DNA of 44,333 bases from Candidatus Eremiobacterota bacterium (GTDB lineage: Bacteria > Vulcanimicrobiota > CADAWZ01 > Ess09-12): NCBI GenBank assembly GCA_031082125.1, contig JAVHLM010000029.1:65478-109810 (forward strand). The letters run 5' to 3'. The notes below the pieces were generated by a model. It saw nothing but the letters and a program-made list of their open reading frames with translations. It searched no databases and was not told the origin of the DNA. Positions within the stretch are counted from its first letter, which is position 1, and each line of letters begins with the position of its first letter. The translations under genes were made by a program, and so were the position numbers. This document shows, piece after piece, positions 27,640-30,461 of the stretch.

Positions 27640-28587
27640 ATGGGCGAAAAGGCCATCATAAGCGCCAGCAGGCGGACCGATATCCCTGCATTCTTTGCTG
27701 AATGGCTCACCGGCAGGCTCAAAGAGGGATACTGCACTGTGGCTAACCCCTTCAGGAAGAGCCAGGTTTTTCGGATCTCGCTCTCTCCGGCGGAGGTGGA
27801 GGCCATTGTCTTCTGGACCAAGAACCCCCTTCCTCTCCTTGCTCATAAAGAGCTTTTACCCCTCCTCGAGAGCCGTTACTCTTTTTATTTCCTTTTCACC
27901 CTCAACGGCTACCCTGAGGTTTTTGAGCCCGCTCTGGCCCGCCGGAGAGAGGAGATCACCGGGGCCTTCACGGAGCTCTCCAGACGCTACGGGAGCCACC
28001 GTGTCATCTGGCGCTACGATCCCATAATCATCAGCACTGTCACCGGATACGATTTTCACCGCAGGAATTTCCTCTCCCTTGCAAAGAGGCTTTCAGGCTT
28101 CACGGAAAGGGTGATAGTGAGCATTGTCGATCATTACAGGACGGTGGGCCGCCGCTTCTCCATGCTGGAAAAGACTTCTGCCATAAAGGTCTTCACCAAG
28201 GAGCGCCTGAAAAGAGAAGCTGAGTTTCTTCCATTCATCAGAGAGCTTAACGAGATGGCGCGCCGTGAGGGGATAGCGATGACAAGCTGCAGCGAATCCT
28301 TTGATCTTGAGGGGTGCGGGATCGATCCTGGGAAATGCATTGACGACAGGCTCATAAGCAGCATCATGAGGAGCCCTGCAGATAATGACGGCCCGGAGAA
28401 TCAAAAGGGGGCGCGGATATACAGGAAGGATCCGGGTCAGCGGGAGCTCTGCCTCTGTACGGTGAGCAGGGATATAGGTACCGCCTCCACATGCGGACAT
28501 AAATGCCTCTATTGCTATGCGAGTGCCGGCGATACCGATTTTTCAAGAACGGGGCCTCCTTGCAGTGAAGAGGGCAATCGGCTATAA
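27640..28587 (+). CDS. DUF1848 family protein
   Basis: The 315-residue protein begins with ISASRRTDIPAFFAEW, contains VFWTKNPLPL, WRYDPIIIS and SCSESFDLEGCGIDPGKCID, and ends with a Cys-rich block (CLCTVSRDIGTASTCGHKCLYCYA). This is the DUF1848 pattern. The C-terminal CGHKCLYC cluster recalls Fe-S binding in spore-photoproduct-lyase-like radical SAM proteins, but the function is not established. It follows the phosphatase by 19 nt. Confidence 0.85.
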   Translation: MGEKAIISASRRTDIPAFFAEWLTGRLKEGYCTVANPFRKSQVFRISLSPAEVEAIVFWTKNPLPLLAHKELLPLLESRYSFYFLFTLNGYPEVFEPALARRREEITGAFTELSRRYGSHRVIWRYDPIIISTVTGYDFHRRNFLSLAKRLSGFTERVIVSIVDHYRTVGRRFSMLEKTSAIKVFTKERLKREAEFLPFIRELNEMARREGIAMTSCSESFDLEGCGIDPGKCIDDRLISSIMRSPADNDGPENQKGARIYRKDPGQRELCLCTVSRDIGTASTCGHKCLYCYASAGDTDFSRTGPPCSEEGNRL

Positions 28588-28588
28588 T
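28560..28588 (+). promoter_or_regulatory. Sigma70-like promoter for the thioredoxin-like gene
   Basis: TTGCAG (28560-28565) and TATAAT (28583-28588) are separated by 17 nt. The expected start of transcription is about 28 nt upstream of the ATG at 28623, so the thioredoxin-like gene can be expressed on its own. Confidence 0.6.
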
Positions 28589-28622
28589 AGGAGAAGACCA
28601 TTACCAGCAAGAGGGAAGCACA

Positions 28623-29174
28623 ATGGAACAAATCTCAGTAAAACAAAGCGCGGGAATCCATTCCAGGCCCAATGGCCACGTCCCCCTGAAGGAAGGGGAA
28701 GGAGGGCTTCCCTCCGTCATTGACAGGGCAGAGATCATGGGACCTGGCGCCAGTGAGCCTCAGCTCATTCCATCGCCCCGAGCCCGCGATGCCTCGGAAG
28801 CAGGCAAGGTGGCAAAAGCCGGAGGCCCTGCCGATCCTGACGAGCATGTGACCGATCTCAACGACATGAATTTCAAGGACTTCATAAAAAATGCGCCGCT
28901 CCCCGTGGTGGTAAACTTCTATCACCCCACCTGAAAAAACTGCTGGGCATACGCACCGGTGGTGTCAAAGCTTGCAGCGCAGTACGAAGGGAAGCTGATG
29001 GCCGGGAAGATGGACAGGCCTGGTAATCCCGCCACGGCCGGGGAGTTCCAGGTGGAGCACTCCCCCACGACGCTCTTTTTCAGGGACGGAAAGGAAGTGA
29101 AGCGCTTCTCCGGCTATGTGAAATATGAAGAGCTTAAGAAGGTCACCGATGAGTTCCTCGCGGGAAGAGGCTGA
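28623..29174 (+). CDS. Thioredoxin-like selenoprotein candidate (Sec from in-frame TGA at 28932)
   Basis: Two adjacent frames, ending and resuming at a single TGA (28932-28934), form one 184-codon frame. Residues after about 80 match thioredoxin: VVVNFYHPT-TGA-KNCWAYAPVV aligns with the VDFWAxWCGPC active site, and QVEHSPTTLFFRDGKEV gives the cis-Pro loop. The TGA falls exactly on the first redox Cys, giving UKNC (Sec104, Cys107). Coding continues in frame to 29174. The first 80 residues are polar and probably disordered, beginning MEQISVKQS. A hairpin with a GGT loop follows the TGA. Alternatives are a nonsense mutation or sequencing error, but these would have to hit precisely the active-site codon. 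No sel genes are in the window. Confidence 0.8.
28935..28980 (+). promoter_or_regulatory. Candidate bacterial SECIS hairpin inside the coding region
   Basis: CACC (28954-28957) pairs with GGTG (28961-28964) around a GGT loop that starts 24 nt after the TGA. An outer helix can form between CTGC (28940-28943) and GCAG (28974-28977), with weaker pairs between. Position and a G-starting loop agree with known bacterial SECIS elements. It was folded by eye only. Confidence 0.5.
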
Positions 29175-29211
29175 CCCTCACTTTTTCATAAGCAGGCGAT
29201 CAAAGAATTCT

Positions 29212-29237
29212 AAAAGAAGCATATCTGCTTCTTTTTT
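29212..29237 (+). terminator. Intrinsic terminator after the thioredoxin-like gene
   Basis: AAAAGAAGCA and TGCTTCTTTT (10-bp arms, TATC loop) are followed by further T residues, 37 nt after the stop codon. It separates the selenoprotein candidate from the DUF362 gene. Confidence 0.8.
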
Positions 29238-29390
29238 CTTTGCCTTGAATCCATGGCCCTCCCCTGCCGGCAACCGGCCATGGGCCATAAGGAAAAAGGA
29301 GAAAGGACTGTTGCTGTATAAAGAATTATGGCATTGCTCCAAAGAATCCTGGAATTGATCAAGCAGGCTTATGGAATGTGAGGTGCAGAA

Positions 29391-30461
29391 ATGGCTTCAG
29401 AAGTATATTTTGCCCCGCTCAGTGATGGCGCATCGGCGGTGCAGCAGGCAAAGGCCACGGCGAAAGTCTATGATGCATCAGGTTTCGGCAGGGCTCTCCA
29501 TGAAAGGGATTTTGTGGCAATCAAGGTCCATGTGAGCGAAAAGATGTCCAAGACTTACATGAGGCCCCAGATCATAAAGAAACTGGTGGACAAGGTCAGG
29601 GAGTGCAAGGGAAACCCCTTCATCACCGAGACCTCAACACTTTACAAAGGCGAGCGCGAGAATGCCGTGAAGCACCTTCTCCTGGCCCACCGGCATGGCT
29701 TCGGTATCGAGAAGACCGGGGCACCCTTCATCATGGCCGACGGGCTCCTGGGAAACACGGAAGCCGAGGTTGCCATCAATGGCGAGCTATTTGACAGGGT
29801 GAAGATTGCCGGCGAGATTATAAGTGCTGACGGCCTCATTGCCGTGGCCCACGTGACGGGCCATCTTGTCTCGGGGCTGGGCGCCTGCATCAAGACTCTG
29901 GGAATGGGCCTGGCGAGCAGAAAGGGGAAAATGAGGCAGCACTCGGCAATGAAGCCTGAAGTCAACAGAGAGCTCTGCCGCTTCTGCCGCAAGTGCCTGC
30001 GCTGGTGCCCCCGGCAGGCGGTAAGCGAAAAGGGGGGAAAGGCTTTCATTGCCCTCAGCCGCTGCATCGGCTGCGGAGAATGCCTTGCCGTCTGCCGTTA
30101 TGACGCCATCAAGTACGACTGGGGCAAGGAGGCGGGCTTCATGCAGAAAAGCATGGCCGAATATGCCCTGGGTGTCATACTGAACAAGAGAGAGAAGTGC
30201 CTTTTCATCAACCTCCTGACAGGTATGACACCGGAATGCGACTGCATGAACACCGACGAAAGATTCGTCGCTGATATAGGCGTACTTGCCTCAACAGATG
30301 CCGTGGCCATAGACAAAGCAACGCTTGACCTCACCGCCAGGGCCTTCGGGAAAAGCGTGGCTGAGCTCTCCCATCCCAAGCAGGACGCCTTGATTCAGAT
30401 AGCCCATGGGGAAAAAATCGGCCTGGGCTCAATGAGCTACGAGCTCATCAAGATCTCATGA
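29391..30461 (+). CDS. DUF362 protein with two [4Fe-4S] clusters
   Basis: The 356-residue protein has a DUF362 N-terminal domain (FVAIKVHVSEKMSKTYMRPQ and VAHVTGHLVSGLGACIKTLG). It is interrupted by a 2x[4Fe-4S] ferredoxin insert at about 195-235 (CRFCRKCLRWCP and CIGCGECLAVC) and ends with a DUF362 part containing CDCMN. DUF362-ferredoxin proteins are thought to be electron-transfer proteins of unknown partner. It probably has its own transcript because a terminator precedes it. Confidence 0.88.
   Translation: MASEVYFAPLSDGASAVQQAKATAKVYDASGFGRALHERDFVAIKVHVSEKMSKTYMRPQIIKKLVDKVRECKGNPFITETSTLYKGERENAVKHLLLAHRHGFGIEKTGAPFIMADGLLGNTEAEVAINGELFDRVKIAGEIISADGLIAVAHVTGHLVSGLGACIKTLGMGLASRKGKMRQHSAMKPEVNRELCRFCRKCLRWCPRQAVSEKGGKAFIALSRCIGCGECLAVCRYDAIKYDWGKEAGFMQKSMAEYALGVILNKREKCLFINLLTGMTPECDCMNTDERFVADIGVLASTDAVAIDKATLDLTARAFGKSVAELSHPKQDALIQIAHGEKIGLGSMSYELIKIS

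Follow-up and report, generated by a model that had tools for sequence, protein, structure and literature searches.

The locus and the encoded protein

The window, by which we mean the whole stretch of 44,333 nucleotides that was analysed, contains on its forward strand a thioredoxin gene of 183 residues whose frame is interrupted by a single internal TGA at residue 104 and is closed by a second TGA (29172-29174). The internal codon lies where the first active-site cysteine of a thioredoxin is expected, and if it is read as selenocysteine (Sec) the active site becomes U104-K-N-C107, with Sec at the N-terminal and Cys at the C-terminal position of the motif. The neighbouring genes encode an acid phosphatase, a DUF1848 protein and a DUF362 protein with ferredoxin-type motifs, and the gene immediately upstream ends 35 bases before the start codon of the Sec-thioredoxin. 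A possible promoter, perfect at its -10 element and matching three of six positions at -35, overlaps the stop of this upstream gene, and together with a terminator-like hairpin behind the Sec-thioredoxin it weakly suggests that the gene has its own transcript. All features and their coordinates are collected in Table 1.

Table 1. Features of the Sec-thioredoxin locus, in window coordinates
Feature	Position	Strand	Evidence
Sec-thioredoxin gene, TGA at codon 104 predicted to be read as Sec	28623..29174	+	Translation, Pfam, codon usage, AlphaFold
Polar Gly/Pro/Glu-rich N-terminal extension, residues 1-75	28623..28847	+	Translation, codon usage, AlphaFold
Thioredoxin domain, residues 76-183	28848..29171	+	Pfam PF00085, AlphaFold, PDB matches
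TGA codon for predicted Sec104, first (attacking) active-site residue of UKNC	28932..28934	+	Translation, pattern, alignment
TGC codon for Cys107, second (resolving) active-site residue	28941..28943	+	Sequence, alignment
Cis-proline codon P148 of the thioredoxin fold	29064..29066	+	Invariant in alignment
Candidate bSECIS hairpin	28940..28977	+	Folding against published model
Possible promoter TTGCAG-17-TATAAT	28560..28588	+	By eye; below scan threshold, only suggestive
Terminator-like hairpin shortly after the stop codon, T-rich tail	29212..29235	+	Scan: 2 found, 1.4 expected (weak)

Codon usage in the gene frame scores +11.1 bits over residues 1-76, +24.8 bits over residues 77-103 and +47.6 bits after the TGA, and the two other forward frames have negative scores over the same gene. 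A search of the window with the pattern V-[DN]-F-[YW]-x3-TGA-x2-C-x3-A-P gives a single match, versus none in 100 shuffles. Within the N-terminal extension GC3 is 0.58 versus 0.71 in the genes of the window, and because the coding signal is weaker there the exact position of the start codon is less certain than the thioredoxin domain. A standard list of open reading frames (table 11) divides the gene into 28623-28934 and 28959-29174, which is the splitting by standard gene callers that had been foreseen in an earlier note on this DNA.

The read-through protein matches Pfam Thioredoxin (PF00085) over residues 76-175 with E = 8.2e-19 and 68 bits against a gathering threshold of 23.5, and thioredoxins of known structure in the PDB match the same span with E around 1e-16 to 1e-17. 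In the AlphaFold model, made with an alignment of homologues, residues 71-180 form a thioredoxin domain with pLDDT of about 91-98, in which the helix 105-120 begins directly after residue 104; the predicted structure has the cis-proline P148 and the UxxC motif at the start of a helix, as is characteristic of the thioredoxin fold. An alignment of 29 sequences shows no variation at position 104 (its TGA taken as C) or at C107, P112, P148 and G156. These data bear out what the earlier note had read from the DNA: a lone in-frame TGA on the first active-site Cys, giving UKNC, retention of Cys107, and similarity to thioredoxins on both sides of the TGA. The NCBIfam thioredoxin equivalog TIGR01068 gives 65.7 bits, below its cut-off of 96.8, and judged by its sequence the Sec-thioredoxin is a divergent thioredoxin, not the housekeeping one.

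Ahead of the domain lies a tail for which AlphaFold reports pLDDT of about 52-62 (residues 1-70), with residues 1-74 being of low confidence and without structure. The disordered, polar character previously ascribed to this extension is consistent with the model, although its length is about 75 residues, not 80; and it is not unique, as the nearest Cys-containing relative also carries a Pro-rich one. We infer a cytosolic location for the Sec-thioredoxin, because inspection of the extension by eye revealed no evident signal peptide or membrane segment.

Predicted selenocysteine decoding in the host genome

The host genome is a draft of 7.43 Mb in 69 contigs (97.6% complete, 2.2% contamination), and it encodes the full machinery for Sec insertion. 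A selB gene (383 bits) lies immediately beside the tRNA-Sec gene on contig C6; the latter, which scores 70 bits and is called by ARAGORN as tRNA-SeC with anticodon TCA (UCA), is the only one in the genome. Both selA (557 bits) and selD (385 bits) are on contig C8. SelD itself carries one in-frame TGA, in HAAGUASKIG (L018, C8:155936), and a check of two further families revealed four more genes with a single TGA at the catalytic position: FdhA (DHCARTUHAPT; L100, C4:58138), an AhpC-type peroxiredoxin (FTFVUPTEL; L107, G000 C2:43506), a second peroxiredoxin (FIUPFC; L108, C2:112798), and a TlpA-like protein in which FWRYGUPEC follows a long N-terminal region (L109, C3:305147). Among the families checked there are accordingly at least six selenoprotein genes in the genome, including the thioredoxin, each with its TGA at the catalytic position. 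GrdB had no match in the host genome, nor in the control genomes, so the lack of a match is no sign of its absence.

Directly downstream of the internal TGA the message can fold into a candidate bSECIS hairpin, 23 nt after the UGA and with -14.0 kcal/mol, which has a two-part stem with an upper part of 5 bp (GCACC/GGUGU, 28953-28957/28961-28965) and the apical loop GGU (28958-28960). The published bacterial SECIS model calls for a hairpin 16-37 nt after the UGA, a G in the first two loop positions and a minimum free energy of at most -7.5 (PMC13188914). The hairpin of the Sec-thioredoxin fits this model, as do 311 of 1761 ordinary control codons with the strict loop pattern (18%), and 70 of the 1761 (about 4%) have a hairpin at least as stable; as such it is consistent with SECIS function and is weak evidence alone. 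Longer folds are not unusually stable (z of -0.29 for 51 nt and +0.12 for 91 nt), and a search of 28500-29400 against Rfam found no RNA family. A hairpin folded initially, with the loop AUAC, was set aside, its loop being without the conserved G that is present in the alternative GGU fold. Candidate hairpins of the other genes differ: that of FdhA has a GGUCU loop 18 nt from the UGA, that of SelD a GGC loop at 17 nt, that of the FVUPTE peroxiredoxin an AGUU loop at -6.7, which narrowly misses the energy limit, and that of the TlpA-like gene a UGGA loop, while the FIUPFC peroxiredoxin had no good match under the bSECIS rules.

We consider it very likely, with a probability of about 0.95, that the internal TGA is read as Sec. 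Of 183 codons it occupies the one at which homologues encode the attacking Cys, with thioredoxin sequence on both flanks, and this prediction is well supported because chance or error cannot plausibly explain a set of at least six genes with catalytic TGAs. The TGA rests on one assembly, and no second genome with a TGA at this site was found. An assembly or sequencing error that turned TGC into TGA, or a recent nonsense mutation that struck an ordinary Cys thioredoxin gene, would be in keeping with the draft state of the genome and with there being no TGA at the site in any other thioredoxin matched in the phylum. It would, however, require an accidental stop of exactly the TGA type to have fallen by coincidence on one particular codon out of 183, in a genome with Sec decoding and five further genes of this kind, and with the coding signal intact downstream; the codon is also preceded by Thr, a residue found at this place in some Sec thioredoxins and in not one of the 45 tabulated Cys thioredoxins. 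Such an origin of the TGA is very improbable.

The UGA could also be a genuine stop, producing a protein of 103 residues and a second one from the GTG at 28959, and both pieces are indeed open reading frames under table 11. This division would lose the attacking residue and cut the thioredoxin fold in two, in a genome which has tRNA-Sec and SelB, and we regard it as extremely improbable. That TGA is generally read as Trp or another residue in this organism has a negligible probability, given that the Sec-thioredoxin frame itself ends at TGA, that there is a tRNA specific for Sec (anticodon TCA), and that the other TGA genes each have a single TGA in the family match, at the catalytic site. The earlier note had proposed that Sec is inserted here, and had named the absence of all sel genes from a complete genome as one observation that would refute it; selA, selB, tRNA-Sec and selD are all present in the same genome, homologues have Cys at the Sec position and TGA occurs at the catalytic site of other genes, all of which supports Sec insertion as a prediction.

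Related thioredoxins and probable origin of the selenocysteine

The Sec-thioredoxin belongs to an already known kind of protein, and as such confirms established biology. Sec thioredoxins are a published family that has been studied by experiment. One source places them (PF00085, UxxC), with WP_010956703.1 as an example, among the established selenoprotein families of prokaryotes and before those that are only predicted (PMC13188914), and they were reported in 2006 from Geobacter, Anaeromyxobacter, Carboxydothermus and Treponema denticola (PMC1794560). Like these published proteins, the one described here has a thioredoxin domain with Sec as the first residue of the CxxC motif, a TGA codon and a nearby hairpin of the bSECIS model. 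It differs from them in its lineage, in the Thr before UKNC where ordinary thioredoxins have Trp, and in the disordered N-terminal extension of about 75 residues. The present case brings a thioredoxin selenoprotein to a phylum that has been little studied, and draws attention to a gene which would be split in standard annotation.

A pattern scan of 84,980 species genomes yielded 25 matches, about 20 of them real UxxC thioredoxins or TlpA-like proteins, from Planctomycetota, Methylomirabilota, Poribacteria, Actinomycetota, Chloroflexi and Verrucomicrobiota; as the pattern only admits motifs with V-[DN]-F-[YW] on their N-terminal and A-P on their C-terminal side, the true number is higher. The UxxC thioredoxins of Planctomycetota, Poribacteria, Actinomycetota and Verrucomicrobiota have Sec in the same place, mostly preceded by Gly, Thr or Ser instead of Trp, but do not group with the Sec-thioredoxin in the tree and have other architectures, with long N-terminal repeat regions in Poribacteria and a Cys partner gene nearby in Planctomycetota. 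At four planctomycetal loci (L071, L078, L081, L086) the genes of a WCGPC thioredoxin and a GUHAC Sec thioredoxin share the same short locus. A locus of Poribacteria (L091) codes for two domains of the Sec thioredoxin type, EFUIFC and DNUPFC, and three loci related to it (L076, L084, L090) have long N-terminal repeat-like regions. Across 20 Sec thioredoxin-fold loci among L071-L095, Sec follows a Trp in just two, the preceding residue being mostly Gly and sometimes Thr or Ser, and Trp precedes the motif in 43 of 45 Cys thioredoxins, in a comparison that counts related sequences repeatedly and is a pattern, not a statistic. In the Sec-thioredoxin this Trp is lost and Thr precedes Sec (28929-28934).

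Relatives were searched in 149 genomes of the phylum, 117 of which had a match at E <= 1e-12, and among these matches the Sec-thioredoxin gene itself was the only one with a TGA at the active site. Stop codons that seemed to interrupt some relatives, TGA included (e.g. G006 C172, G012, G014, G025), proved to lie at gene ends or upstream and not at the active site, and were discarded. The closest relative is a Cys thioredoxin from a genome of another family of the phylum (G006, C73:2403-2747), with 38-41% identity, which pairs with the Sec-thioredoxin in a maximum-likelihood tree with support of 94/83; this pairing is moderate evidence, given the short alignment and the long branch of the Sec-thioredoxin. 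This relative resembles the Sec-thioredoxin in being its closest sequence and tree partner and in having its own Pro-rich N-terminal extension, and differs from it in having CPSC in place of UKNC, Trp before the motif and no TGA. It is because of this pairing that a local exchange of Cys and Sec is favoured over transfer from other Sec thioredoxins, and the Sec probably arose by such an exchange within the lineage. With at least six selenoprotein genes in the genome and the closest Cys relative at hand, this is a useful case for the study of Cys/Sec exchange. A scan of GTDB genome contigs for close relatives of the whole protein found nothing, and a phage collection contained no match to the Sec-thioredoxin. 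A conserved trxA-selA pair, often with selB behind it, was seen in 42 genomes of the phylum (e.g. G047 C1:557-2196), the gene of a Cys thioredoxin preceding selA by 12-425 bases in the same orientation; the host genome does not have this pair.

Proposed function and a second selB gene

Established thioredoxin chemistry assigns the attack on the substrate disulfide to the first motif residue, and the resolution of the intermediate to the second. SelA and SelD would produce the charged tRNA-Sec, which SelB would carry to the internal UGA, where the hairpin directly downstream, as a bSECIS, may bind SelB and so permit delivery. As in UxxC thioredoxins already known, Sec104 would then be the attacking nucleophile on substrate disulfides and Cys107 would resolve the mixed selenenyl-sulfide bond; the N-terminal 75 residues would form a disordered tail. 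Recycling would be by thioredoxin reductase, which is present in the genome (379 bits), and NADPH. Likely partners are the peroxiredoxins of the cell, two of which are predicted Sec proteins, and other disulfides or selenite are also likely substrates. The Sec-thioredoxin is probably an accessory thioredoxin, since the genome has another gene, at C1:472251, for a canonical WCGPC thioredoxin.

The same molecule might instead serve mainly in selenite reduction or in the delivery of selenium to SelD and not in general disulfide reduction. Thioredoxins have been described as reducing selenite for the synthesis of selenoproteins (PMC8538045), and the placement of Cys thioredoxin genes just upstream of selA in 42 genomes of the phylum points in the same direction. 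The Sec-thioredoxin gene, however, is not near any sel gene, and the selA-linked genes encode Cys thioredoxins that do not group with it, and we consider such a main role unlikely, preferring that of an accessory disulfide reductase.

The host genome contains two full-length selB genes (C6:170366-172246, L001, 383 bits; C8:16892-18754, L002, 320 bits) which are 34% identical, and a literature search on paired selB genes found nothing. It is conceivable, though decidedly unlikely, that each SelB reads a subset of the selenoprotein messages, including that of the thioredoxin, which would constitute split Sec decoding in one bacterium. The facts behind this reading are the divergence of the two selB genes and the presence of several differing candidate SECIS hairpins in one genome, and the two genes pose a testable question on Sec decoding. 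Among the 149 genomes of the phylum, two selB genes occur only in the host genome and in one other (G124).
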